Made by a program: the position numbers and the translations under genes. From contig NZ_FNFU01000015.1 of assembly GCF_900101115.1 (NCBI RefSeq), forward strand, positions 1 to 64,000: a stretch of DNA of 64,000 nt, in the 5' to 3' direction. A model generated the notes under the pieces. That model saw only the letters and a program-made list of their open reading frames with translations. It was not told where the DNA came from and ran no database searches. Shown here one piece after another: positions 2,983-32,907 of the stretch (positions are counted from its first letter, which is position 1; each line of letters starts with the position of its first letter). This DNA comes from Cryobacterium psychrotolerans (GTDB lineage Bacteria > Actinomycetota > Actinomycetes > Actinomycetales > Microbacteriaceae).

Positions 2983-3735
2983 TTATGCCTTGACCTGGCC
3001 GGCGGTGTGTTCTCGCATGTTGTGGCCGCCGGTCTCGACCCAGATGGTGTTGTGCACGATGCGGTCCATGATCGCGTCGGCGTGAACCCCGGAACCGAGA
3101 CGCTGGTGCCAATCCTTTTGGGCGTATTGGGTGCAGAACACCGTTGATGCTTGGTCGTAGCGGCGCTCGAGGAGTTCCAGAAGCATGCTCCTTGTGCTCT
3201 CGTCGGGCTCGTCGAGGAGCCATTCATCGATTACCAGGAGCTTGAATGCGGCGTACTTGTTCAAGAACTTCGTCGTGCCGGAGGGTTCATCGCGGGCCAG
3301 CTGCCAGGCCTCTTCGCGCTCCGGCATCCGAATGTAATGTGCTCGCACTCGGTGCAGGCACGCGGCCTACGCCAGCGCGCACCCCAGATGCGATTTCCCC
3401 GACCCGGTGAATCCTTGAAAAACGACGTTCTGCTGCCGGTCGATGAATGAGCACGTGCCCAGCCCCGCGATCATCGATCGGTCAAGGCCGCGTTCCTCGA
3501 CGAGGTCCAGGCGGCGCAGGGCAGCGTTTGGATTTCGCAGGTTCGCCCGGCGGATCAGCCCCTCGACCTTGGTTTGGGTGAAGACGAAGTGGGCGTCATC
3601 GACGGCGAGTTTGATCTTCTCCTCGAATGCCAGACCGAGGGTGAGGGTGTCGTCCTGTGCGTCGAAGGCGTCCAACAGGGTGGCGACGCCCATTTCGCGG
3701 AGTTTGCGTTTGGTCTCGATATCCATCCGGCTCAT
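2983..3735 (-). pseudogene. istB: IS21-family helper ATPase istB, interrupted by one amber codon
   Basis: The product starts MSRMDIETKRKLREMG and contains Walker A (GFTGSGKSHLGCALA), a Walker B-like LLVIDEWLLD, and the IstB ending GGHNMREHTA. It would be 250 codons long, the normal size of this AAA+ helper, which assists IstA in target selection. An in-frame TAG at 3367-3369 (minus strand) interrupts it directly after Walker A. The frame resumes without any shift in the expected ACLHRVRAHYIRMP, so a single TAC-to-TAG substitution explains it. The start overlaps the istA remnant stop as ATGA. Unless the amber codon is suppressed, the protein is inactive; translation could restart only at internal Mets that lack Walker A. 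Confidence 0.85.
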
Positions 3736-3850
3736 CGTGCACCGCCTCCGGCGTAGTAGTCGGCGCCGCGGACATATCCGCCGGATTCGGGTTCGGTGGG
3801 TTCGAAGCGCGGAATCCTGCGGGTACCTTTCTTGTCTTGCCCGGTCTCCA
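3732..3850 (-). pseudogene. istA: C-terminal remnant of IS21 transposase istA
   Basis: Directly upstream of istB, a short frame reads LETGQDKKGTRRIPRF followed by YVRGADYYAGGGAR and a TGA that overlaps the istB ATG. Its position and coupled stop/start are what is expected of the 3' end of istA. Only about 38 codons remain; upstream the sequence changes to a tyrosine-recombinase gene at about 3850. The identity rests on position and on the tail character, since no catalytic part is left. Confidence 0.5.
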
Positions 3851-4436
3851 AGATATGTTCGCGTGACCGAGGAACTCCTTAATATGAGGGAGAGGAACGC
3901 CGGCGCGCAGCATCTGCATCGCGCGGGCATGCCGAAGCTGGTGAGCATGGATCTTCTCCGGAAGCTCCGAACACTGCGCTCGTGCCGCGGCGGCATGTTT
4001 GTTCAGCAAGTAGGAGATGTTGTCCTGGCTCATCTGGTGGCGGCGACCTGCCCGGACCGTGAAGGACAACGGGGCTGTTGTCTCGGGGGCGCCGGGGTGG
4101 AACTCGCGTCGGTAGTGGTCGAGATGGCGTGCGGTCTTGTCCATCAGGGGAACGGTTCTGCTTTTGCGCCCTTTGCCGGTGAGCGTCACGCGGCTGGCGC
4201 CGATCGTGGTGTCGATATCGGCCGGGGTCAGGTCGAGGATTTCCTGGATCCGTGCTGCGGCATCGAAGGTGAGCAGGATGAGGGTGGTGTCCCTGCGACC
4301 GCGGCTGGTGTCTTGCCCGGGTGCGCGGATCAGCGCGTCGACGGCGGGCATGCTCAACCCGTCCGGAGCCCGCGCCGGTGTTCGGGCGGGCTTCACCTGT
4401 CTGACACCCAGCCAGATCGACACGAGCGACGCGCGA
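3851..4436 (-). pseudogene. Tyrosine recombinase/integrase fragment lacking both ends
   Basis: The frame on the minus strand contains the catalytic core of a phage/island-type tyrosine recombinase: TFDAAARIQEILDLTPADID (first Arg), LTGKGRKSRTVPL (beta-hairpin Lys), HAHQLRHARAMQMLRAGV (HxxLRH box) and EFLGHANIS. At about 3850 the sequence switches to istA remnant before the Tyr nucleophile, so the enzyme is inactive. At the other end the frame has no convincing N-terminal arm-binding domain and stops at the inverted repeat of the IS3 element (4437). It is probably the remains of the integrase of an island inserted at the nearby tRNA-Gln. Confidence 0.75.
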
Positions 4437-4456
4437 TGTCAAGCTGAGTGGAGTCA
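4437..4456. repeat. Left inverted repeat of the IS3-family element
   Basis: TGTCAAGCTGAGTGGAGTCA pairs imperfectly with the right end at 5910-5932. It covers the orfB stop codon at 4454-4456. Confidence 0.6.
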
Positions 4457-5482
4457 CTCGGGTGAGCTTGTGACGGCTGTGTCGGGGATGTTGATTCCGA
4501 CGGTGCCGGCTGGTGCGGGTGTTCTTGGTCGCGCGCGGACTCGTTCCGGGTGCTTCTGGTGATAGTGCTGCAGGGCACGGTCGCGAATGCGGTGCGCATG
4601 CTTCCAGGAACCGTCGTGCACTTGCTGGGGTGTGAACAAAGCGATGCCGGAGTGCCTGTGGGTCGTGTTGTACCAGGGCACGTAGTCGGTCAGGTGATCG
4701 CGTGCGGTCTGGAGATTGTCGAAGATCCCTGGGTAGTTCGGCCGGTACTTCATCGTGCGGAACTCGGACTCGGAGAACGGGTTGTCGTTGGAGACATAGG
4801 GCCGGTTGTGGGTCTTGGTGACATTGTGCTCTTCGAGGAGCTCGGCCAGAGCGCTCGAGCGCATCGCGGGTCCGGAGTCGGCGTGCACGAACTGTGGGGT
4901 GCCGTGTTGACGGAACGCGGTCTGGAACATCTCCACGGCGAGGTGGTCGCTCTCGCGATCTTCGACCCGCCAGCCGGTGATCTTGCGGGACCAGATGTCG
5001 ATGATCGTGTACGCCTTGAACGCTTTCCCCCGCCACGGAGAGCGCAGATCGGTGATGTCCCAACTCCAAACCTGGCCAGGCCCGGTCGCTATCAACACCG
5101 GCTTCTCCCGGGGTGTTCGGGACCCACGCCTCGTGGGCACCAGGGGGCGTGCGCTCTGATCCTCGATATCGGCGGCGATACGCCACCATGACCTGCGCCC
5201 GGCGAGCATTACACCCCGGTCCCATGCGGACGCGAACGTGTGATCGACAGAGTGTCCGCCCGCCCAGCCCGCCGTGATCTTCTCCGCGATCGCTCTCCGA
5301 TCGGTTGTGGGGATACGAGACAGGTAAGCGCGATCTTTCTGCAGGACAGGCTCGGACACCCGTGCGCGGGGCGTATGCCGGTACTGCCATGTTGATCGTG
5401 CGACGCCGGCGATCGCCAACGCATTACGTTGCGAACCTGTCGTGCGCGTCAGCTCAGCTACGAGCTCGTTCTCCAACGTCAA
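4454..5482 (-). CDS. IS3-family transposase OrfB (DDE integrase domain)
   Basis: The 342-residue product has an N-terminal helical region (RNALAIAGVARSTWQYRH), an HTH_21-like segment and an rve catalytic core. The three catalytic acids are visible in WSWDITDLRS (Asp), HADSGPAMRS (Asp) and NPFSESEFRTMKY (Glu), with the usual YNTTHRHSGI tail. It cuts and joins DNA during transposition. The start TTG at 5482 overlaps the orfA stop as TTGA, so translation of OrfB seems to be coupled by stop-start overlap; I see no slippery A-run typical of the -1 frameshift used by many IS3 elements. All catalytic residues and the length look normal, so the element may be active. Confidence 0.9.
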   Translation of the reverse strand: MTLENELVAELTRTTGSQRNALAIAGVARSTWQYRHTPRARVSEPVLQKDRAYLSRIPTTDRRAIAEKITAGWAGGHSVDHTFASAWDRGVMLAGRRSWWRIAADIEDQSARPLVPTRRGSRTPREKPVLIATGPGQVWSWDITDLRSPWRGKAFKAYTIIDIWSRKITGWRVEDRESDHLAVEMFQTAFRQHGTPQFVHADSGPAMRSSALAELLEEHNVTKTHNRPYVSNDNPFSESEFRTMKYRPNYPGIFDNLQTARDHLTDYVPWYNTTHRHSGIALFTPQQVHDGSWKHAHRIRDRALQHYHQKHPERVRARPRTPAPAGTVGINIPDTAVTSSPE

Positions 5483-11499: not shown

Positions 11500-12513
11500 T
11501 TAGGCCGTGCGGACGACCATCTTGCCGGTGTTCTCGCCGCGCATCAGACCGAGGAATGCCCGGGCCGTGTTGTCGATCCCGTCGACGACGGTCTCGTCGA
11601 AGACGACCTCGCCGTTCGCGAGCCAGCCGGACATGTCGGCGGAGAAGGCCGGGAAGTGCTGCACGTAGTTGCCGACGGTGAACCCCTTCAGGCTCAGTCC
11701 GCGGGTGATGATGTTGGACATGTTGCGCGGTCCGGCGGGGGCATCGGTGCTGTTGTACAGCGAGATTGCGCCGCACAGCGCGGCCCGGCCGCCGTTGTTG
11801 AACGCCCCTAGCGCGGCTTCGAGGTGGTCGCCTCCGACATTGTCGAAGTACACGTCGATGCCCTCGGGTGCCGCGGCGGCGAGCTGGTTGGCGAGCGAGC
11901 CGTCCTTGTAGTTGAATGCGTCGTCGAAGCCGTACTTCTCGGTCAGGAGCGCGACCTTCTCGGCCGAGCCGGCGGAGCCGATCACGCGCCCGGCGCCCTT
12001 GAGCCTCGCGATCTGCCCGACCATGGTGCCGACGGCCCCGGCCGCACCGGACACGAACACCGTGTCGCCTTCCTTGAGGCCGGCGATCTCGAGCAGGCCG
12101 ACGTACGCGGTGAGGGCGGTCATGCCGAGCACGCCGAGATAGGCGGAGAGTGGGACGCCTGGGATTTCGGGGACAACGCGGAACCCGGAGGCATCCTCCT
12201 GCACCAGGTCGCGCCAGCCGTGCTGGTGCACGACCACGTCGCCGACGGCGACGGCGTCAGAGGCGGATGCGATCACCCGGCCGACGGCCCCGCCGGTCAT
12301 GGTCGCGCCGAGCGCGTAGGGCGCAGCGTAGGACTTGGCGTCGTTCATCCGTCCGCGCATGTAGGGGTCGACCGAGACGAACTCGTTGGCCACGCGCACC
12401 TGGCCCGGAGCGAGGTCGGGCAGGGTCACCTGCACCGTGCGGAAGTCGGCGGCGGTGGGCCAGCCGACCGGGCGGGCGACGAGCTGGGTCTGGGTGCTGA
12501 TGGATGAGGCCAT
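11500..12513 (-). CDS. NADP-dependent MDR oxidoreductase (CurA/prostaglandin-reductase-like)
   Basis: The 337-residue protein belongs to the zinc-independent medium-chain reductases: VSVDPYMRGRMNDAKSY in the substrate site, GMTALTAYVGLLEIAG, and the nucleotide-binding VFVSGAAGAVGTMVGQIA. These enzymes reduce the C=C bond of enones and alkenals with NADPH. No zinc-ligand Cys/His set is present. It is divergent from the TetR gene, and an 18-bp perfect palindrome lies between them, so repression by that TetR is likely. Confidence 0.9.
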   Translation of the reverse strand: MASSISTQTQLVARPVGWPTAADFRTVQVTLPDLAPGQVRVANEFVSVDPYMRGRMNDAKSYAAPYALGATMTGGAVGRVIASASDAVAVGDVVVHQHGWRDLVQEDASGFRVVPEIPGVPLSAYLGVLGMTALTAYVGLLEIAGLKEGDTVFVSGAAGAVGTMVGQIARLKGAGRVIGSAGSAEKVALLTEKYGFDDAFNYKDGSLANQLAAAAPEGIDVYFDNVGGDHLEAALGAFNNGGRAALCGAISLYNSTDAPAGPRNMSNIITRGLSLKGFTVGNYVQHFPAFSADMSGWLANGEVVFDETVVDGIDNTARAFLGLMRGENTGKMVVRTA

Positions 12514-12562: not shown

Positions 12563-12580
12563 GTCCACTATATAGTGGAC
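12563..12580. promoter_or_regulatory. Perfect 18-bp palindrome, probable TetR operator
   Basis: GTCCACTATATAGTGGAC is a perfect palindrome 49 bp from the reductase start and 45 bp from the TetR start. The TATA-rich centre could overlap a -10 element of either gene, so binding would repress both. Confidence 0.8.
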
Positions 12581-12625
12581 TGAGCGATACACAAACTGAA
12601 CGAGACACGAACAGGAGGGCTCACC

Positions 12626-13309
12626 GTGGGACGGATCCAGGCATTCGACACCGTCGCCGTCGTTCAGGCCGCGCGCGACCTGTTCTGGGACAAAGGCTAC
12701 GAGGCGACCTCGCTCGCCGACCTGGAGGCGGCGACCGGGCTGGCTCGATCGAGCCTCTATCACGCCTTCGGCAGCAAGCGCGGGCTCTTCGACGCGGCGG
12801 TTGCGGACTACCTCGATACGGTCATCCGGCCCAGGCTGCAGGTGTTGCTGACCGGCGCGACCGACACGAGCGCACTGCTCGCGTACCTCGACGGGCTGCG
12901 TCTCGCGGTGCAGAGGCGCGCGGACGCCTCAGACGGCTCGGACAGCCCGGACGGCTCCCGCGGCTCGAACAACTCGGGCGACTCCCGCGGCTCGGGCAAC
13001 TCCCCCACGCGCGGCTGCCTTCTCATCAATTGCGCTGCAGGCCTGGCCGCCCATGACGACCCCGCCCGCGAGGTCGTCGACGGATACCGGGCCGAACTCG
13101 TGGCCGCGCTCAAGCATGCCCTCCTCTCGGCCGGGGCCGGGCAGCCCTTCCAGCCGACGCTCGTCGATGAGCGAGCGCGAACCCTCGCCTCCTTCACGAT
13201 GAGCGCCATGCTTCTCGCCCGGGTCAACCCGGACGAATCGGCAGCACTTCTGGAAACGGCATCCGGCCTGGTGCGGTCCTGGATGCCCGAGGTCGGGTCG
13301 ACGGCGTAG
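12626..13309 (+). CDS. TetR/AcrR-family regulator with a Ser/Gly/Asp-rich insertion
   Basis: The 227-residue protein begins with a clear TetR helix-turn-helix (YEATSLADLEAATGLARSSL, then YHAFGSKRGLFDAAV). The ligand domain carries the typical GCLLINCAAGLAAHDDP motif. Between LRLAVQRR and that motif there is a ~25-residue low-complexity insertion (DASDGSDSPDGSRGSNNS...) built from partly repeated DNA. It starts at GTG 12626 behind AGGAGG. It probably represses the divergent MDR reductase and itself through the palindrome at 12563. The inducer is likely an electrophile, but this is only inferred from the target. Confidence 0.9.
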   Translation: MGRIQAFDTVAVVQAARDLFWDKGYEATSLADLEAATGLARSSLYHAFGSKRGLFDAAVADYLDTVIRPRLQVLLTGATDTSALLAYLDGLRLAVQRRADASDGSDSPDGSRGSNNSGDSRGSGNSPTRGCLLINCAAGLAAHDDPAREVVDGYRAELVAALKHALLSAGAGQPFQPTLVDERARTLASFTMSAMLLARVNPDESAALLETASGLVRSWMPEVGSTA

Positions 13310-23170: not shown

Positions 23171-23730
23171 GAGATACCTCCGGTGCCGAGAATGAATGGG
23201 AGCGGCGCGAGCAGCACCGCGCCGGCGAGGAGCCAGCTGATGCGCGCGTTGCCGTGCCCGGAGGTGAGCCAGTAGGTCGCACCGAACCAGGCGGCGGGCG
23301 CCGCCACGGCGAGCCCAAGCCCCAGCGAAAACATGAACCTGGCCACCGGCTCGATCAGCGAGTTCTCGATCCGGCCGACGCCGAGGAACCAGCCGATCGT
23401 GTACAGCAGGTAGATCCCGGCGAAAACGCCCAGGGCGATAAGCGCGGCCGAACTCGCCGGGGCCGCTGCCTCGCGTGCCGCCTGCGCCTCCACCGCGGTC
23501 GTCGGCCCGGCGACGGACCACCCGTCCGGGATGTCGGCTGGCGGCTCGGCCTCGGGCGCCGGCTCGGGCGCCGGCTCGGCTACCGGCGCGGTTTCGGGCT
23601 CGGCCTTTGCCCCCGTCCCGGCATCCGGCCCGGCCTCGGGCGCGTGTTGCCCCCGGGCCGGTCCGGACGCGAGGGTCGGATCGTCGTCGCCGGCCCAGCC
23701 GAGGGCATCGTCATCCCGATGAGAAGTCAT
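23167..23730 (-). CDS. Membrane protein with acidic Ala/Pro/Glu-rich N-terminus, unknown
   Basis: Of 187 residues, the first ~90 form a low-complexity acidic tail (PETAPVAEPAPEPAPEAEPP). They are followed by about three membrane helices (AALIALGVFAGIYLLYTIGWFLG, FSLGLGLAVAAPAAWFGATYWL, ISWLLAGAVLLAPLPFIL). No catalytic motif is visible. It is coupled by ATGA overlap to the next small membrane protein. Such disordered tails often cause misannotation as DNA polymerase III gamma/tau; there is no AAA+ domain here. Confidence 0.8.
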   Translation of the reverse strand: MTSHRDDDALGWAGDDDPTLASGPARGQHAPEAGPDAGTGAKAEPETAPVAEPAPEPAPEAEPPADIPDGWSVAGPTTAVEAQAAREAAAPASSAALIALGVFAGIYLLYTIGWFLGVGRIENSLIEPVARFMFSLGLGLAVAAPAAWFGATYWLTSGHGNARISWLLAGAVLLAPLPFILGTGGIS

Positions 23731-23758
23731 ACCCCTAGGTTAGCGAGCGCGGGGGAGA

Positions 23759-24814
23759 CTACCGGCTGATCACGACCTTGAGCGCCTTCGTTTCCGCCGC
23801 GCGGGAGAACGTGTCGTAGGCCTCGAGGAACTGGTCGAAGCTGAAATGGTGCGTCGCGAGCTTCTCGGCCGGGATCTTCTTCTGCGCCACCAGCTTCAGC
23901 AGCATGGGCGTCGTGTTGGCGTTGACCAGGCCCATGCTGATGTTGATGTTCTGGATCCACAGGTTCTCGAGGTGCAGCTCGACCGACTTGCCGTGCACGC
24001 CGACGTTGGCCACGTTTCCGCCAGGGCGCACGATGTCGGTGGCCATGGTGAAGGTCTGCGGGATGCCGACGGCCTCGATGGCGACATCGACCCCGGCACC
24101 GTCGGTCAGGGCGAAGACCTGTTCCTTCCAGTCGGCCGCATTGGAGAGCACCGTGTCCGTCGCCCCGAACCCCTTCGCCTGCTCGAGGCGGTTCGGATCC
24201 AGGTCGAGCGCGATGATGGTCGCGGCGCCGTAGAGTCCGGCCGTGGCGATCGCGGCCAGGCCGACCGGACCGGCCCCGATCACGGCCACCACATCGCCGG
24301 GCTTGACCCGGCCGTACTGCACGCCGATCTCGAACCCGGTCGGCAGGATGTCCGAGAGCATGACCGCCTGGTCATCGGTCACACCCGCCGGCATCTTGTG
24401 CAGGGAGTTCTCCGCATACGGCACGCGCACGAATTCGGCCTGGGTGCCGTCGATCAGGTGCCCGAAGACCCAGCCGATGCCCGACTGGCCTTCGTCGCCG
24501 AGGCAGTGCGAATACAGCTCCGACTTGCAGTTGGCACAGTGCCCGCAGGACTTGATGCAGGAAATAATGACCCGGTCGCCCACCGCGAGGCTGCTCACCG
24601 ATGAGCCCACGGCCGTGATCGTTCCGACGCCTTCATGGCCGAGGATCCGGCCGACCTGCACTGCCGGCACATCGCCCTTGAGGATGTGCAGGTCCGTGCC
24701 GCAGATCGTGGTCGTATCGACCCGCACGATGGCGTCGGTGGCGTGCACGATCTCCGGGTCCGGAACGTCCTGCCAGGTCTTCTTGCCCGGACCGCCATAA
24801 ACCAGTGCCTTCAC
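23759..24814 (-). CDS. Zinc-dependent alcohol dehydrogenase (MDR)
   Basis: The 351-residue enzyme has the catalytic zinc ligand in TTICGTDLH (C38), GRILGHEGVGTI, the structural-zinc cysteines in SCGHCANCKSELYSHC, and the NAD site VVAVIGAGPVGLAAIATAG. The family oxidises alcohols or reduces aldehydes with NAD. GTG 24814 behind GAGGGA is the start, giving KALVYGGPG at the N-terminus. It is divergent from an alpha/beta hydrolase with 117 bp between. Confidence 0.93.
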   Translation of the reverse strand: MKALVYGGPGKKTWQDVPDPEIVHATDAIVRVDTTTICGTDLHILKGDVPAVQVGRILGHEGVGTITAVGSSVSSLAVGDRVIISCIKSCGHCANCKSELYSHCLGDEGQSGIGWVFGHLIDGTQAEFVRVPYAENSLHKMPAGVTDDQAVMLSDILPTGFEIGVQYGRVKPGDVVAVIGAGPVGLAAIATAGLYGAATIIALDLDPNRLEQAKGFGATDTVLSNAADWKEQVFALTDGAGVDVAIEAVGIPQTFTMATDIVRPGGNVANVGVHGKSVELHLENLWIQNINISMGLVNANTTPMLLKLVAQKKIPAEKLATHHFSFDQFLEAYDTFSRAAETKALKVVISR

Positions 24815-24931
24815 AGTGACTCCCTCAGTGGATTTCTTTAAGTGGACTTCGTTCAGTGGATTTCGCTCCGGGCATCCGCCCGCCTGTGCCCACCGTACTC
24901 CCGGCGGCCGCCGCGGGGCTACGATCCCTGC

Positions 24932-25855
24932 ATGGCGGATCAGACCAGGAATCCCTTCGCCCTCCCCGGTGCCGAGGCGCCGCGGGCAGGTCTGCGTGAC
25001 GTGAACGGATGCCGGCTCCACACGGAGGTGCGCGGCAGCGGCCCGACGATCCTGATCATCGGCGCGGCGAGTGATGACGCGGAGATGTTCCGCCCCATCG
25101 CCGAACGGCTGACCGGGTTCACCGTTGTCACCTATGACCCGCGCGGCACCCTGCGGAGCAGCCGCGATGGCTGGCCCTGCGACTCCACGCGGCATGCGGA
25201 GGACGCCGCGGAGCTGCTCCGCACCCTCGGACTCGGCGCCGAAACACGCGCGGACGTCTTCGGCTCCAGCGCCGGCGGCATCGTTGCCCTGCAGCTGGCC
25301 CTGCGACACCCCGAGCTGGTGCGACGCGTCACCGTGTTCGAGCCGGGCTACTTCCAGCTGACGGCATCCGGCCGGGCCCTGGCCTCCCGCGTAGGCGCGC
25401 AGGTGGACCGGCACCTCGCCGCGCATCCCGGCGACTGGGCCGGGGCGATGGCGCTGGTGTCCGGCGTCGCGCGGGTCGAACGGCCCGACGACAAGCAGCC
25501 CGGCGTCACGCAGCCCGGCGCCCGGCCGTCCGGGCTGCTCGCCGCCCCGGCGGGCCTGGAATGGTACGCGGCACGCGGCGAAGCGCTGGCCGAGAACCTG
25601 ATCAGGGGCGACCTCCCGGTCACCGGCGAGTCCGTCGACTTGCGGGCCCTGGCGACATCGGCCGCCGACATCCGCTTCGCGCTCGGAAGCGCGTCGCATC
25701 CCGTGTTCGGCGAGATCGCCCGCGAGCTGACCCGAGTGCGGCGGCGCCCGGGGTCGGCCGATCCCGAGGAACCCGACGTCATCGACGGCGTCGGCCACGT
25801 AGTCTGTTTCGCTCCGGAGCCGGTCGCCGAGTACATCCGGCGGCGGTGCGCCTAG
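24932..25855 (+). CDS. Alpha/beta hydrolase
   Basis: The 307-residue protein shows the fold: VRGSGPTILIIGAASDD (oxyanion strand), VVTYDPRGTLRSSR, the nucleophile elbow FGSSAGGIVAL (S113) and a C-terminal GVGHVVCF with the catalytic His. An internal repeat-like KQPGVTQPGARPSG lies in the cap. The substrate is unknown. Its TAG stop shares the CTAG at 25852-25855 with the convergent FAD oxidase stop. Confidence 0.88.
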   Translation: MADQTRNPFALPGAEAPRAGLRDVNGCRLHTEVRGSGPTILIIGAASDDAEMFRPIAERLTGFTVVTYDPRGTLRSSRDGWPCDSTRHAEDAAELLRTLGLGAETRADVFGSSAGGIVALQLALRHPELVRRVTVFEPGYFQLTASGRALASRVGAQVDRHLAAHPGDWAGAMALVSGVARVERPDDKQPGVTQPGARPSGLLAAPAGLEWYAARGEALAENLIRGDLPVTGESVDLRALATSAADIRFALGSASHPVFGEIARELTRVRRRPGSADPEEPDVIDGVGHVVCFAPEPVAEYIRRRCA

Positions 25856-27252
25856 ATCAGCGGGATGTTGTGGTTGAGCCGGAAGATGTTCTCCGGGTCG
25901 AACTCGCGTTTCAGGGCCGCGAGGCGCTGCAGTTTCTCCGGACCGTAGACCGAGAGCGCCTGGGCCACGGGATCCCGCCCGCGCTCCTCGCCGAGGAAGT
26001 TCACGTACTGCCCGCCCGTCGAGTACGGCTCCATGTCGGCGGCCATCCCACGCACGAAGGCGGTGTGCGGCGCGTCGTCCGCGGCATCCGGCCAGTAGCC
26101 GTAGACATTGAGCCAGAACCGCGCGGAGCGGTTCGGGAAGGGCGTGGCGTCTTCGGGGACGCGGCCGAACGCGCCGCCCAGGTGGTGGATGTCGAAGCCC
26201 GTCCCCCGCCAGGTTTGTTCGGTTCCCCGACGCACGAGCGTCCCAATCACGTCGTCATCCAACCGGTCGAACGAGGTGTTCTTCCAGTACCCCCGGACGC
26301 CCTTCGGGAACATCTCGTCCGCGGCCGACTGCCACTCGGCCCAGCGGGCGGGCGGGGCGACTTCCGTGTCGGGCGGGGCGGCCGTCCGCAGCCGGTCGAC
26401 GATCCGCTCGCCCTCCTCTGCATCCGGTGATGCCCAGACGAACCCCAGCAACATGTGCGGGTCACCGCCGAGTTCCCAGGTCTCCGGCGGAACAAAGAAC
26501 GAGACGATCGAAGTCATCTCATCGGGCAGGTCGCGCGTCCAGGTGTCGTAGACCCGGAGAGCGTCGGCCCAGCCGTCCCGGCGGTAGACGAGGTTGCCGG
26601 AGAACACCTTCGAGGGCAGCGGATGCGCGCGAAAGGTGAATGAGGACACCACGCCGAAATTGCCTCCGCCTCCCCGGAGTCCCCAGAACAACTCCGGGTT
26701 CTCCCCGGCGCTCGCTCGCAGGACCTCGCCCGACGCCGTGACCAGCTCGGCCGAGAGGAGGTTATCGATCGTCAGGCCGTGGGCCCGGGTCAGCCAGCCG
26801 ACTCCCCCGCCCAGCGTCAGGCCGGCCACGCCGGTTCCCGAGACCACCCCGACCGGCACGGCGAGGTTGTGCGGCCCGGTCGCCCGGTCGATGTCACCGA
26901 GCGTCGCCCCGGCCTGGGCCCGCACGGTGCCTCGTTCCTCGTCGACCTGCACGGCCTTCAGCCCGCCCAGGTCGAGCACGATGCCGCCCTCGACGGTTCC
27001 GTTGCCGGCGACGTTGTGCCCGCCTCCCCGCACCGCGAGGGGCAGCGCATGCTCCCTCGCGTACCGCACGGTCGGAGCAATGTCGGCCGGGGAGGCCGCC
27101 CGAACCACCGCCGCGGGCCGTCGATCGATCATCCCGTTCCAGACGCGCCTGGCCTCGTCGTACCCGGGGTCTTCGGCCAGCAGCACGCTTCCGGCGACCT
27201 GTCCCCGCAGGCCGTCGACAGCAGCCGAGGCCATGGTCTTCGGATCACCCAT
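25852..27252 (-). CDS. FAD-binding oxidoreductase, BBE type (VAO/p-cresol methylhydroxylase fold)
   Basis: The 466-residue flavoenzyme has the PP-loop region LAVRGGGHNVAGNGTV with the His (H79) that carries 8-alpha-histidyl FAD. It also has VGVVSGTGVAGLTLGGGVGWL and the C-terminal berberine-bridge motif YWPDA...FDPENIFRLNHNIP. A second (Cys) FAD link is not evident. Relatives oxidise sugars or aromatic alcohols; the substrate here is unknown. ATG 27252 has AGGTGAG upstream. Three 14-bp tandem repeats lie directly before the gene. Confidence 0.9.
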   Translation of the reverse strand: MGDPKTMASAAVDGLRGQVAGSVLLAEDPGYDEARRVWNGMIDRRPAAVVRAASPADIAPTVRYAREHALPLAVRGGGHNVAGNGTVEGGIVLDLGGLKAVQVDEERGTVRAQAGATLGDIDRATGPHNLAVPVGVVSGTGVAGLTLGGGVGWLTRAHGLTIDNLLSAELVTASGEVLRASAGENPELFWGLRGGGGNFGVVSSFTFRAHPLPSKVFSGNLVYRRDGWADALRVYDTWTRDLPDEMTSIVSFFVPPETWELGGDPHMLLGFVWASPDAEEGERIVDRLRTAAPPDTEVAPPARWAEWQSAADEMFPKGVRGYWKNTSFDRLDDDVIGTLVRRGTEQTWRGTGFDIHHLGGAFGRVPEDATPFPNRSARFWLNVYGYWPDAADDAPHTAFVRGMAADMEPYSTGGQYVNFLGEERGRDPVAQALSVYGPEKLQRLAALKREFDPENIFRLNHNIPLI

Positions 27253-27266
27253 GTGTCTCACCTACA

Positions 27267-27308
27267 GATTTGCCGATACTGATGTGCCGATATCGATTTG
27301 CCGATACT
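27267..27308. repeat. Three tandem 14-bp iterons before the FAD oxidase gene
   Basis: Contiguous copies GATTTGCCGATACT (27267-27280), GATGTGCCGATATC (27281-27294) and GATTTGCCGATACT (27295-27308) start 15 bp upstream of the ATG. The first and third are identical. They could be regulator-binding iterons in the promoter or 5' leader. Confidence 0.85.
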
Positions 27309-27417
27309 TGCGTGTGTGTGCGGCTGGCCGCGCCGGCTGGTGAGCGCGGCCCGGATCATCCGCTTCGTCCATTATCGGCAGGGTGAAACACACTCGCAAG
27401 GACCACGTCCCGGACGG

Positions 27418-28719
27418 TCAGGCCCCGAAAGCGTCGATTCGCGCCGTCCCGTCGTAGCCGCCTTTCGGCGCGGGCAGCCCGAACAGCGCCCCCACCGTGG
27501 GCGCCACATCTATCGTGCGGGCGGGCTGGGAAGACGACCCTGCGAGAACCCGAGGGCTGCCACCGGCGATGAAGAAGGGGATCGGTTCGGTGGCCGGATG
27601 CCCGTGGTTGCCCGGAATCGGGTTGGACGCGACCCAGGGATCGGAGAAGCGCCAGCCCGTCCGGCAGAACGCGACCAGGTCGCCCGCCTCCGGGCCGAGG
27701 CGCAGGTCGGCGGGGTTCGAAATCGACAGCACTCCCGGGTGCGCGGCCACGAGACCGCGAATCTCGGCCACCCCGGCATCCCGAGCACCAGCGGGCCCCG
27801 TCCAATACAGCAGGTCGGCCCCGCCGTTTTGGGCGATGGCGACCCGATCGCGCAGGTCGGGACGTCCGGCGAGGATCTGATCCACGGAGATGACGTTCGA
27901 CGGGATGGACCAATCCATGGAATGGTCCGCGAGCACGATGAGCACGCTGCTCTCCCAGGTGCCCGCCGCGACGAGATGATCCACGAATCGCCCGACCTGG
28001 TTGTCCGTGTCGCGGAGGGCCGTGGTCCGGGCGGCCTGCAGGGTCGTGCCGGAGACATCCGAATGCCCCACTCGGTCGACATCGCCGAGGTTCGTGAACA
28101 CGAAATCGGGGTCCACCCGGTCGACCATGGCGATCAGCGCGTCCATCGTGAAGTTGTCGGGCGCGTGCCCCGTCACCGGGAGAAGCGGGGAGGGCTCCCA
28201 GCGGTAGGTGGCGCGCTCGCCGAAGATACCGAAGAGGTAGCGCTTGCTGAGCACCGATCCCGTCGAGAAGCCCTCATCCCTGAGCCGGTCGAGCAACGTC
28301 GGAAAGCGAAGGTCGGCGGGCCGGTCCAGATCGCGCACGACGGACTCTGCGCGGTCGTAGATCGAGTTGGCCGGAACCCCGGAGCGAATCGGTCGGACCC
28401 CGGTCATCATCATCACGTGGTTGGGGATGGTCTCCATGACGGGCAGGGAACGGGCGGCGGGGAAGTCGGTCCCGGCGGTGCGCAGCGCCGCCAGGCGGGG
28501 GGTGAGGGCCGAGGTGATCTCATCGGGGCGGCAACCGTCGACGACCAGCACGTACACCCGCGTTCGCGACGCCGGCGCCGTCACGCGGGTCGGCAGCGCG
28601 GATGCCTGGCCGGCGGTCCCCGCGGCGATGGAGAGAATGACGGAGGCCCCGCCTGCCGCGGCCAGTCTGAGGAACCGGCGGCGGTCGGAGTCCGGGAATC
28701 CGGACGGCGCGGCGTTCAC
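27418..28719 (-). CDS. Tat-exported alkaline-phosphatase-superfamily phosphodiesterase/nucleotide pyrophosphatase
   Basis: The 433-residue protein begins with a Tat signal (DRRRFLRLAAAGGASVILSIAAG). The mature domain has RVYVLVVDGCRPDE (metal/nucleophile region), PNHVMMMTG, NLGDVDRVGHSD and VLADHSMDW, the metal-binding motifs of type I phosphodiesterases. It should hydrolyse extracellular phosphodiesters or pyrophosphates. GTG 28719 overlaps the phoD stop (GTGA), so the two phosphatases are coupled. It may serve phosphate scavenging. Confidence 0.88.
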   Translation of the reverse strand: MNAAPSGFPDSDRRRFLRLAAAGGASVILSIAAGTAGQASALPTRVTAPASRTRVYVLVVDGCRPDEITSALTPRLAALRTAGTDFPAARSLPVMETIPNHVMMMTGVRPIRSGVPANSIYDRAESVVRDLDRPADLRFPTLLDRLRDEGFSTGSVLSKRYLFGIFGERATYRWEPSPLLPVTGHAPDNFTMDALIAMVDRVDPDFVFTNLGDVDRVGHSDVSGTTLQAARTTALRDTDNQVGRFVDHLVAAGTWESSVLIVLADHSMDWSIPSNVISVDQILAGRPDLRDRVAIAQNGGADLLYWTGPAGARDAGVAEIRGLVAAHPGVLSISNPADLRLGPEAGDLVAFCRTGWRFSDPWVASNPIPGNHGHPATEPIPFFIAGGSPRVLAGSSSQPARTIDVAPTVGALFGLPAPKGGYDGTARIDAFGA

Positions 28720-30365
28720 AGGACGCGGCTCACGGCCTGGGTGCCGGCGGCAACCTGCCACGACGCGGACAGGGTGCTGGTCGCCGCCCTGCTCGTGCGG
28801 TCAGAGAGCACGTACCAGTCCATCCGCAGGGCGCCCGGCGTCACCTCCAGGACCGAGAATCCGTGCGAGTCGAAGTCCAGGTACTTGACGTGCGGGTTCG
28901 CGGCCTTGAAGGCCTCCTCGACGGCGACGGATGCCGTGCGCGGCTGGGTCCCGAGGATGTCGTCCAGGTTGTCGCTGGTCACTGAGGTGCAGACGAGTTC
29001 CGCGGCCACGGACGCGCCGTTCGACGGGTACGTCAGCGGGTCCGCCGGCACGTCGCAGGCCCAGCTGGAGTGGATGTCCCCGGTGAGGAAGACGGCATCC
29101 GTGATGGCGTTGTCGCGCAGGTGGCTGATCACCCGGCTGCGGTCCGCCGTGTAGCCATCCCACTGGTCCACGTTGTACGGGACGCCGTCGATCGTGGTCG
29201 ACCCGAGCAGCTGCGAAACGGCGCCGACTTCCCGCGCGCTCAGCGTTGACGGGAAGCGGACGGGGGCGATCATGACGGGGTTGCCGATGAGTTTCCATTG
29301 CGTCTCGGCCCCGGAGAAACCGTCCAGCAGCCAGTCCATCTGCGCCGCACCGGTCAGGGTGCGTGCCGGGTCGCCAATCGCGGGATCGACCATGTTCGAC
29401 GCCTGCTGGCTGCGGTAACTGCGCAGGTCCAGCATGGAAATGCTGGCCAGAGCGCCGTAACTGAAGCGGCGGTAGAGGTGGCCGCCCGGTTCGTATCGCA
29501 CCGGCATCCACTCGGCGTAGGCCTGCTGGGATGCCGCCTGGCGCGACGCCCAGGACCCCTCCACGCCTTCCGTGTGGTTCTCGGCTCCCCCGGACCAGGC
29601 GTCGTTGGCGGACTCGTGATCGTCCCAGGTGACGACGAACGGAACCGCCGCATGCAACGCCTGCAGCTCGAGGTCGGTCTTGTACTGCGCGTGACGGCGC
29701 CGGTAGTGGGACAGCGTGGTCATTTCGACCGCCGGGTCGTGCGGCCGGACCACGACGTCCCGGGCCTGGTACTCGCCGGGGCCGTACTCGTAGAGGTAGT
29801 CACCCAGGTGCAGCACCACGTCCAGGTCGCCCCGGTCCGCGAGGTGGCGGTACGCGCTGAAGTAGCCGGCCTGCCAGTTGGCGCACGACACGACCCCCAT
29901 CCGCAGTCGTTGAACGGCCGTTCCGGCCGCGGGCGCCGTGCGTGTGCGACCGGTTGCCGACGTCACTCCGGCCACGATGAATCGGTACCAGTAGGTCGTG
30001 CCCGGTCGCAGCCCGTGGGCCGCCACCTTGACGGTGTGGTCCCGTGCGGCGCCCGTGATGACGGAACCGCGCGCCGCGACCCGGTGGAAACCGGAGTCCT
30101 CTGCCACCTCCCACTTCACGGCCACGTCCGCGCCGACCCCCGATCCCGGCACGGCGTCCGCGGAGGGGGTCACCCGCGTCCAGAGCAGGATTCCGTCGGG
30201 CAGCGGGTCGCCGGAGGCTACGCCGTGCAGGAAACCGGGCACCACGGCGCCGGCCGCCTGGGCCGGCAGCGCGCCGGCTGTCGCGCCGGCTGTCGTCGCG
30301 GCGGCACCGGCAAAAGCCATGACGCCTGCGGAGCGGAGAAGATCTCGTCGATTGAAAGGACTCAT
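28716..30365 (-). CDS. phoD: PhoD-type alkaline phosphatase, Tat-exported
   Basis: The 549-residue protein starts MSPFNRRDLLRSAGV, a Tat signal, followed by a PhoD N-terminal Fn3-like domain (HGVASGDPLPDGILLWTRVTP). The metallophosphatase core has VVSCANWQAGYFSAYRHLA, VLHLGDYLYEYG, TWDDHESANDAW and LTGDIHSSW (Fe/Ca ligands). PhoD releases phosphate from mono- and diesters outside the cell. A PHO-box-like repeat lies about 50 bp upstream. The downstream phosphodiesterase overlaps it as GTGA. Confidence 0.94.
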   Translation of the reverse strand: MSPFNRRDLLRSAGVMAFAGAAATTAGATAGALPAQAAGAVVPGFLHGVASGDPLPDGILLWTRVTPSADAVPGSGVGADVAVKWEVAEDSGFHRVAARGSVITGAARDHTVKVAAHGLRPGTTYWYRFIVAGVTSATGRTRTAPAAGTAVQRLRMGVVSCANWQAGYFSAYRHLADRGDLDVVLHLGDYLYEYGPGEYQARDVVVRPHDPAVEMTTLSHYRRRHAQYKTDLELQALHAAVPFVVTWDDHESANDAWSGGAENHTEGVEGSWASRQAASQQAYAEWMPVRYEPGGHLYRRFSYGALASISMLDLRSYRSQQASNMVDPAIGDPARTLTGAAQMDWLLDGFSGAETQWKLIGNPVMIAPVRFPSTLSAREVGAVSQLLGSTTIDGVPYNVDQWDGYTADRSRVISHLRDNAITDAVFLTGDIHSSWACDVPADPLTYPSNGASVAAELVCTSVTSDNLDDILGTQPRTASVAVEEAFKAANPHVKYLDFDSHGFSVLEVTPGALRMDWYVLSDRTSRAATSTLSASWQVAAGTQAVSRVL

Positions 30366-30415
30366 ACCCCCAGTCTGGGGGGGGCATATTCACGCGGCCG
30401 CGCATTCGAGGGGTC

Positions 30416-30433
30416 GTTCACCCGCTGTTCCCC
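30416..30433. promoter_or_regulatory. PHO-box-like direct repeat
   Basis: GTTCACC, spacer CGCT, GTTCCCC gives two 7-bp units with 4-bp spacing, the layout of PhoP boxes in Streptomyces. It lies 51 bp from the phoD start in the divergent phoD/ppsA region. A third, weaker ATTCACG occurs at 30389. Suggests induction of the phosphatase operon by phosphate starvation. Confidence 0.5.
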
Positions 30434-30531
30434 CAGGATTCGTCCACCGTCCATGCCCCCGCGCCGGGATTCTTTGGGTGTACCGTGCGACGAGAGACCC
30501 CTGTTCGTGAACGGATGAGCGGAGCAAACGG

Positions 30532-32907
30532 ATGCAACGAGTTCTCTGGCTGGGCGACGCGTCGCTGGCCGATTTGGGTGCCCTGGGCGGCAAGAACGCA
30601 TCGCTCGGGGAGATGATCTCGCATCTGTCCTCCCTCGGGGTCACCGTGCCGATGGGTTTCGCCACCACATCGGACGCCTTCCGCGAGTTCCTGCTCGAGA
30701 ACGGCGTCGACAAGCACGTCGACCGGGCGCTGCAGGGCCTCGACACGAACAACCTCGCGGCGCTGCAGACCGCCGGCGCCTCCATCCGCGCCGCGATCAT
30801 CGCCGGCACACTCCCGCCTCCCCTCGAGGCCGAGGTGCGGGAGGCCTACGGCCAGCTGGAGAGCTGCAACCCGGCGGGCCTGAGCGTGGCCATGCGCTCC
30901 AGCGCCACCGCGGAGGACCTGCCCGAGGCATCCTTTGCCGGCCAGCAGGAGACTCTGCTCAATGTGCAGGGAATCGACGAGGTGCTGCGCCGCCTGCCCG
31001 AGGTCTTCGCGTCGCTGTTCACCGACCGGGCGATCGCCTACCGGGCACACCACAACGTGCCGACCCTCGGCATCGCGCTGTCGGTGGGGGTGCAGGTGAT
31101 GGTTCGCTCCGACATCGGCGCATCCGGGGTGCTGTTCACGATCGACACCGAGTCCGGCTTCAAGGACCTCGTGTTGATCAACTCCGTCTACGGGCTCGGC
31201 GAAGCGATCGTGCAGGGTGCGGTCAACCCGGATGAATTCCGGGTATACAAGAGCTCCCTGGCCGCGGACAAGTACGCGATCCTCAGCCACGAGCTCGGCA
31301 CCAAGGAGCAACGGATGGTCTACGCCGACGGGGCACAGGCGACCACGCGCTTCGAGCCGGTGCCGGTCGTCGACCAGCGCCGGTTCAGCATCACCGACGA
31401 CGACGTGCACGAGCTCGCCCGGATGGCCGTGACGATTGAAAACCACTACGGCCGGGCGATGGACATCGAGTGGGGCAAGAGCGGCATCGACGGCCGTCTC
31501 TACATCCTCCAGGCCCGGCCGGAGACCGTGGAGTCCCGGGCCGGCACGGCTGGGGTCCTCCGCCAGTACCGCCTCACCGGGACGGCCCCGGAGCTGCTCT
31601 CCGGCCGGGCCGTGGGCCGCAAGATCGGCAGCGGGATCGCCCGGATCCTCGCGTCCACGGCGGAGATGGGGCGGCTGCAGCCGGGTGATGTTCTCGTCAC
31701 GGACATGACGGACCCGGACTGGGAACCGGTCATCAAGAAGGCCAGCGCCATTGTCACGAACCGCGGCGGCCGCACCTGCCACGCGGCGATCATCGCCCGC
31801 GAGCTCGGGATTCCGGCCATCGTGGGCACCGCCTCCGGCACGACGGCCCTGTATGACGGGCAGCCGGTCACCGTCACCTGCGCCGAGGGAGAGACCGGCC
31901 GCGTCCTCGACGGGCTGGTCGACTTCACCGTTGATGAGGTCAGCATCAACGAGCTCCCGCCCATCGGGCCCCGCCTGATGCTCAACGTCGGCTCCCCCGA
32001 CCAGGCCTTCTCCCTCGCGTCGCTGCCCCACCACGGCGTCGGCCTGGCCCGGCTCGAGTTCATCATCAGCACCCGCATCGGCATCCACCCCGCCGCGCTG
32101 ATCGCGGTCGAGTCGGGCGACACCGCCGGGCTGACGGATGAGGTCGTCGCGGAAATCCACCAGAGAACGGATGCCTACGGCGGCGCGACCGCCTTCTACG
32201 TGAAGCGCCTCGCCGAGGGCATCGCGACCATCGCCGCCGCCTTCGCCCCCGAGCCCGTCATCGTCAGGTTCTCCGATTTCAAGTCCAACGAATACGCCAA
32301 TCTGCTCGGCGGCCCGGCGTTCGAACCCGACGAGGAGAACCCGATGATCGGCTACCGGGGTGCATCCCGGTACGTGTCCGACGCCTTCCGGGAATGCTTC
32401 GACCTCGAGTGCCAGGCCGCCCTGTTCGTGCGGGACACGATGGGCTTGACCAACCTCAAACTCATGATTCCCTTCGTCCGGACGATCGCCGAAGCGGAGG
32501 GTGTGATCCGCATTCTCGCCGAGAACGGGCTGGAGCGCGGGCGCAACGGTTTGGAGGTCGTGATGATGTGCGAGGTCCCCTCGAACGCCGTCCTGGCCGA
32601 CGAGTTCCTCGAGCACTTTGACGGGTTCTCGATCGGCTCGAACGACCTAACCCAGCTGACGCTCGGACTCGACCGGGACTCCGCGCTGGTGGCCGAGGCA
32701 TTCGACGAGCGCGACCCGGCGGTGCTGAAGCTCATCTCCCTGGCTATCGCCGCGGGTAAGCGCGCCGGCAAGTATGTGGGCATCTGCGGCCAGGGGCCAA
32801 GCGACTACCCGGACTTCGCCCGCTGGCTCGCGGCCGAGGGGATCGACTCCATGTCGCTGTCGCCCGACACGCTCGTCTCGACCTGGCTGGCGTTGGCCGA
32901 ACCCTGA
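30532..32907 (+). CDS. ppsA: Phosphoenolpyruvate synthase
   Basis: The 791-residue protein has the ATP-grasp N-terminal domain ([42 protein letters not shown]), the swivelling phospho-His domain ([22 protein letters not shown]417) and the PEP/pyruvate barrel with GICGQGPSD (C752). It makes PEP from pyruvate and ATP in gluconeogenesis. GGAG lies 9 bp before ATG 30532. Its last 103 bp are overlapped on the other strand by the DUF998-like gene. Confidence 0.95.

Follow-up and report, generated by a model that had tools for sequence, protein, structure and literature searches.

A three-copy 14-bp tandem repeat before the ribosome-binding site of an FAD-linked oxidase gene in Cryobacterium psychrotolerans

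Results

Organization of the oxidase locus

The DNA analyzed here (the window) is a stretch of 64,000 nucleotides from Cryobacterium psychrotolerans. Near its middle, two oxidoreductase genes on the minus strand are each preceded by a short tandem array. The features considered in this work, with the basis of each assignment, are the following:

23759..24814, minus strand: zinc-dependent alcohol dehydrogenase (ADH) gene (ADH_N and ADH_zinc_N), GTG start (Pfam)
24823..24864, minus strand: second array of three 14-bp units, of unrelated sequence, directly before the ADH ribosome-binding site (TRF, comparison)
25852..27252, minus strand: FAD-linked oxidase gene (FAD_binding_4 and BBE), 466 aa, ATG start at 27252 (Pfam, ortholog)
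27258..27263, minus strand: Shine-Dalgarno-like AGGTGA, separated from the array by 3 bp and from the ATG by 5 nt (sequence)
27267..27308, minus strand: tandem array of three contiguous 14-bp units (sequence, TRF, shuffles)
27326..27351, minus strand: leader hairpin GGCCGC(14-nt loop)GCGGCC (folding, leader alignment)
27371..27399, minus strand: promoter-like site TTGCGA-17-GATAAT (motif search, leader comparison)
27373..27380, minus strand: fourth TGCCGATA, which reads TGCCGATA on the gene strand, is inverted with respect to the array and overlaps the −10 hexamer (sequence)

Moving upstream from the ATG on the gene strand, one meets GACAC, AGGTGA, TGT, the array, a CA-rich stretch, the hairpin and the promoter-like site; the preceding gene on the same strand encodes a phosphodiesterase and ends at 27418. 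An earlier note on this DNA had assigned the repeats to the beginning of an FAD oxidase gene and put them immediately ahead of its ribosome-binding site, and both statements are right on the minus strand. The promoter-like site was found once, against a mean of 0.1 in shuffled sequences. Transcription would start at about position 27364 and, if this site is real, the array would lie in the mRNA leader, some 55 to 100 nt past the start; as far as position goes, the sequence supports the note's suggestion of a leader element. A search of the region 23500–31000 returned no match to any Rfam covariance model up to an E value of 1.

Sequence and statistical weight of the array

On the plus strand, the three units read GATTTGCCGATACT (27267–27280), GATGTGCCGATATC (27281–27294) and GATTTGCCGATACT (27295–27308), corresponding to AGTATCGGCAAATC, GATATCGGCACATC and AGTATCGGCAAATC on the gene strand. 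The first and third units are identical, 11 of the 14 columns are common to all three, and the core TGCCGATA is exact in each (at 27271, 27285 and 27299), which confirms the contiguous 14-bp units with a conserved core described in the note. Tandem Repeats Finder (TRF) reports positions 27263–27308 with a period of 14, 3.3 copies and a score of 64. The array has a three-copy score of 8, whereas the best of 500 shuffles of the 165-bp intergenic region, made with dinucleotide composition preserved, scored 3. Judged against these intergenic-region shuffles, the head-to-tail copies exceed chance, as expected of a short tandem repeat in a 5′ leader. At the scale of the whole window a comparable TRF score is less rare: a score of at least 65 was obtained in 4 of 30 window shuffles, and seven real TRF rows score at least 64.

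The octamer TGCCGATA is itself rare. It occurs 11 times in 483.5 kb, both strands included, and 4 of the 11 occurrences are found at the oxidase locus, within 110 bp. Part of this pattern is accounted for by the −10 consensus.

The array of the ADH gene has 10 of its 14 columns common to all three units, and its unit matches that of the oxidase array at 7 of 14 positions at best over all rotations. The two neighbouring genes carry arrays of equal period, copy number and placement.

Comparison across Cryobacterium

Among named records, the nearest relative of the oxidase protein is that of Cryobacterium tagatosivorans Sr47 (90% identical), and the source organism is close to this species. The genus set comprised 57 genomes, including the organism's own 3.25-Mb draft, and the oxidase protein was matched in 25 of them (E up to 1e-60). 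Six distinct Cryobacterium leaders, those of the window and C. tagatosivorans among them, were compared in an L-INS-i alignment; the G040 leader, which has the same length and sites as that of MP_M3, was left uncounted.

The whole array is present in the window leader only. The C. tagatosivorans leader has two degenerate copies, ATATCGG and GATCGGCA, at a spacing of 10 bp, and in the alignment of the four other Cryobacterium leaders the array is absent, the hairpin being followed by CAATCGCA, which runs directly into the ribosome-binding site. In this between-species comparison, copy number differs among close relatives: the window has three copies, C. tagatosivorans two degenerate ones, and the four others lack the unit. 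Other parts of the leader are more widely kept. The aligned leaders have a GGTGA-, GGTGG- or GGGGA-type site at the equivalent position, and all six share one unchanged hairpin stem around a loop of 14 to 17 nt. C. tagatosivorans has the same promoter hexamers at the same distance; the four other leaders retain TTGC, and a simple-word search finds a weaker −10-like word at 17 bp in two of them, at 15 bp in one and none in the last. The inverted TGCCGATA over the −10 box is retained in C. tagatosivorans and in no other leader compared.

As a separate observation, the hairpin GGCCGC...GCGGCC follows a conserved AGCGGATGANCC-like stretch in the window and at loci L036, L005, L006, L015 and L068, and is far better kept than the array. 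In another ortholog group (L043 2876, L039 2903, L040 2861), a frame of 26–28 codons lies upstream of the oxidase, with GGTG before its ATG and the pattern MxAD....GGRPA..; in three of the six genomes examined, its TGA and the oxidase start share an ATGA, and in the other three the frame is shortened or has no ATG.

The ADH array, present in three copies in the window, has two in C. tagatosivorans and none at L006, L015 and L016/L068 (three genomes), so that the oxidase and ADH arrays each seem to differ by one copy from those of C. tagatosivorans. Across the 57 genus genomes, the doubled ADH unit occurs exactly in the window and C. tagatosivorans only; at two mismatches there is one further occurrence in the window and one each in G031 and G041.

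By eye, the upstream DNA of 38 loci plus the window (35 of the 80 loci with oxidase relatives, and three more) contains no such array outside the six leaders, where the upstream DNA is of other origin. The two-copy motif of the oxidase array had no second occurrence in the organism's own genome at up to two mismatches (one match for the reversed control), and in the 56 other genus genomes it had three at up to one mismatch, against two for the reversed control. The leader core AGCGGATGANCCNGGCCGC, searched at two mismatches, was found in 57 of 57 genomes among the matches listed, above its reversed control, a pattern too loose to discriminate. Finally, the 181-bp leader gave weak matches in 7 of 298 other genomes of the family (E 4.7e-5 to 9.5e-4); these cover query positions 58–122, mainly the hairpin, and one extends about 10 bases into the array.

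The earlier note had listed a regulator array among its readings and had itself named absence of the repeats from orthologous promoters as one of two observations that together would speak against them, the other concerning the effect of copy number. The repeats are absent from four other Cryobacterium leaders and decayed, with 10-bp spacing, in C. tagatosivorans, and the genome has no second two-copy site; for these reasons the regulator array is unsupported.

Candidate regulators

A Pfam scan covered 53 proteins of the window, five of which had no match. The sole DNA-binding regulator domain among them is TetR_N (12626–13309), 14 kb from the array, in a protein whose gene adjoins another oxidoreductase gene. 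MmyB-like regulators had been the first candidate for 14-bp direct repeats; the corresponding model, PF17765, is unmatched in the genome, a literature search showed nothing relevant among the papers listed, and the candidate was dropped.

Predicted effect of the copies on leader folding

The cost of opening the Shine-Dalgarno and start region was calculated by single-strand folding prediction for two stretches, −18 to +6 and −35 to +15. For the narrower stretch of the oxidase leader, one, two, three, four and six units give predicted costs of 9.3, 9.4, 9.2, 10.0 and 9.2 kcal/mol, respectively, and removal of all units raises the cost to 11.1. In the same order, the values for the wider stretch are 16.5, 16.2, 16.4, 14.1 and 16.1 kcal/mol, and 22.0 with none. 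In this model, copy number as such should have little effect on the oxidase leader, whereas the presence of any array may be of consequence. The C. tagatosivorans oxidase leader, at 11.7 kcal/mol (−18 to +6) and 21.4 (−35 to +15), resembles the copy-free version. The opening cost of the ADH leader is 9.1 with three copies, 6.7 with two and 8.8 with one; by the same kind of prediction, this leader may respond to copy number. The earlier note had also proposed that the repeat tunes expression through changes in its number: the number does differ between species, and for tuning the folding prediction is mixed.

Background of short noncoding arrays

The 483.5 kb examined, which amount to 15% of the genome, contain 69 noncoding arrays with a TRF score of 50 or more, a count based on crude gene calls in which the ADH array was missed, being covered by a longer spurious frame. 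Seven of the 69 end 25 nt or less ahead of a start codon that has a Shine-Dalgarno match; random placement gives 4.96 and reaches seven in 37 of 200 trials. The arrays are not clearly concentrated before ribosome-binding sites.

Density per 10 kb of noncoding DNA is 5.6 in the window, 6.9 on contig C32 and 2.6 on seven other contigs of the same genome. It is 2.4 and 1.8 in C. tagatosivorans, 3.7, 2.3, 2.3 and 1.5 in four other members of the genus, and 0.9 in one member of another genus of the family. Noncoding short arrays at these densities are therefore common here, and those of the oxidase and ADH genes are of that kind. A species-wide excess, which was suggested at first, is weakened by the uneven density (2.6 on the seven other contigs) and is not claimed.

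The units of the listed arrays look unrelated to each other in sequence. The word ACTGAAC, common to the arrays at 12579, 24823 and 56578, shows no excess in noncoding DNA (12 sites), and 104 of 420 words of equal composition are as frequent or more so.

Some further elements were noted in passing. At 12579–12612, a 16-bp unit in 2.1 copies stands directly before the AGGAGG site of the TetR_N gene (12626–13309, plus strand), between this gene and a divergent oxidoreductase gene (ADH_N_2, 11500–12513, minus strand); this array is a likelier place for an operator than that of the oxidase. Contig C32 is rich in such arrays. It includes a degenerate noncoding one in which a 16-bp unit is repeated about 18 times (G000:C32 98568–98843, L128) and one of 3.1 copies of a 33-bp unit with 90% matches (L132 3229–3331, G000:C32), which stops 11 nt short of a start codon that has a GGAGG site. 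At 2983–3996 of the window (minus strand), two IstB_IS21 pieces in separate frames lie beside an rve integrase gene (4454–5482); together they look like a broken IS21-type insertion sequence.

Discussion

The array is probably a minisatellite-like short tandem repeat that is specific to this lineage, lies in the untranslated 5′ part of the oxidase mRNA, grew by slippage or microhomology and is tolerated where it stands. Slipped-strand or microhomology-mediated duplication of a stretch just upstream of the ribosome-binding site would have occurred in the common line of the source species and C. tagatosivorans, and would have been followed by gain or loss of copies and by point changes. The array would be tolerated because its position, downstream of the promoter and hairpin and upstream of the ribosome-binding site, leaves all three intact, and any effect on expression would be small. 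It looks like an ordinary, recently grown repeat rather than a dedicated control switch. Several observations sit less easily with slippage. C. tagatosivorans retains the inverted TGCCGATA that overlaps the −10 box, although the octamer is rare; the Shine-Dalgarno region is predicted to be less open when the copies are removed, and the ADH opening cost varies with them; two neighbouring genes have arrays of the same period, copy number and place; and array density is uneven.

The rare octamer is the starting point for an operator array, in which a DNA-binding regulator would recognize TGCCGATA at the −10 box together with the three reversed copies in the leader, and repress by blocking or looping. 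Four copies within 110 bp, one of them overlapping the promoter-like −10 and conserved in C. tagatosivorans, speak for it; however, no other two-copy site exists in the organism's genome, the genus count does not rise above its control, four orthologous leaders do without the array while C. tagatosivorans has a 10-bp spacing, and the one regulator domain found in the window lies 14 kb away. We consider this reading unlikely. Still less probable, and in our opinion very doubtful, is that the TGCCGATA copy overlapping the −10 box, together with the three reversed leader copies, makes up an operator-and-decoy set for a single gene that arose in this Cryobacterium line, in parallel with the 14-bp ADH array, leader repeats of different sequence having been recruited for copy-number tuning of adjacent oxidoreductase genes.

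Action at the level of translation is likewise improbable. Here, repeats richer in A/U would keep a standby site accessible to the ribosome or recruit an RNA-binding protein, and the presence or number of copies would set translation. The array abuts the ribosome-binding site, as does that of the similarly arranged ADH gene, and for Beggiatoaceae the relevant part of PMC4679880 proposes that repeats preceding start codons act as translational sites. Removal of all copies raises the predicted opening cost from 9.2 to 11.1 kcal/mol (16.4 to 22.0 for the wider stretch), and two ADH copies are predicted to be more open than three. On the other hand, the oxidase leader has about the same predicted value with 1, 2, 3, 4 or 6 copies, orthologs manage with no array, arrays are not significantly concentrated before ribosome-binding sites, and Rfam gave no match up to E 1 in 23500–31000. 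A further reading is a translated upstream reading frame that runs through the array, ends in the ribosome-binding site and is coupled to oxidase translation. Two ATG frames of the window, of 36 and 33 codons, terminate at this site, in TAG and TGA respectively; in C. tagatosivorans, a 31-codon ATG frame ends in the TGA of the GGTGA site, as do frames from TTG or GTG in MP_M3 and G029, and a common stretch encoding (A/V)(D/E)(D/E)PGR varies, by eye, mostly at third codon positions. But the leaders have no start codon in common, the frame is shifted in G030 and read through in G010, the ATG of the window falls within the putative −10 box, and each 14-bp copy shifts the frame, so we regard coupling of this sort as extremely improbable.

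With a tolerated leader repeat as the preferred reading, the locus illustrates how short tandem repeats appear and disappear in the leaders of genes in one actinobacterial genus. It also cautions against taking a tidy, iteron-like array next to a ribosome-binding site as evidence of regulation in its own right. Should copy number tune expression after all, two adjacent leaders that stand about one unit apart between sister species would offer a simple natural test.

Iterons in the strict sense are the sites of replication initiators. The oxidase array resembles them only in the general sense of short direct repeats of similar length; it lies in a gene leader, the scan of 53 window proteins revealed no replication initiator, and the genes between 23759 and 32907 (ADH, hydrolase, oxidase, phosphodiesterase, PhoD and a PEP-utilising enzyme) include no initiator gene beside it, so the name given in the earlier note is a misfit. 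Our literature search found nothing on tandem repeats in Cryobacterium leaders, and the closest comparisons come from other bacteria. Moraxella catarrhalis uspA1 has a tract of 9–10 G between promoter and start codon (as given in the relevant part of PMC4679880), and Haemophilus hmw1A has 7-bp repeats, 13–24 heptamers in number (in the corresponding part of PMC8262952). As these passages describe them, both have tandem units of varying number in or near the transcribed 5′ leader, as here; they belong, however, to surface-protein genes with measured effects on expression, whereas the oxidase array consists of three imperfect units. In marine Beggiatoaceae, TAACTGA heptamer repeats stand upstream of start codons, a single genome having 169 sets of them; in Cyanothece, two closely related strains differ in copies mostly by whole units, according to the sections of PMC4679880 on these organisms. 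The same account has the Beggiatoaceae heptamer spread genome-wide and overlapping the expected place of the Shine-Dalgarno sequence, whereas the oxidase unit occupies a single place and is followed by a good Shine-Dalgarno sequence. Within what that source reports, the two are alike in being short direct repeats in few copies, intergenic and near the starts of functionally unrelated genes.
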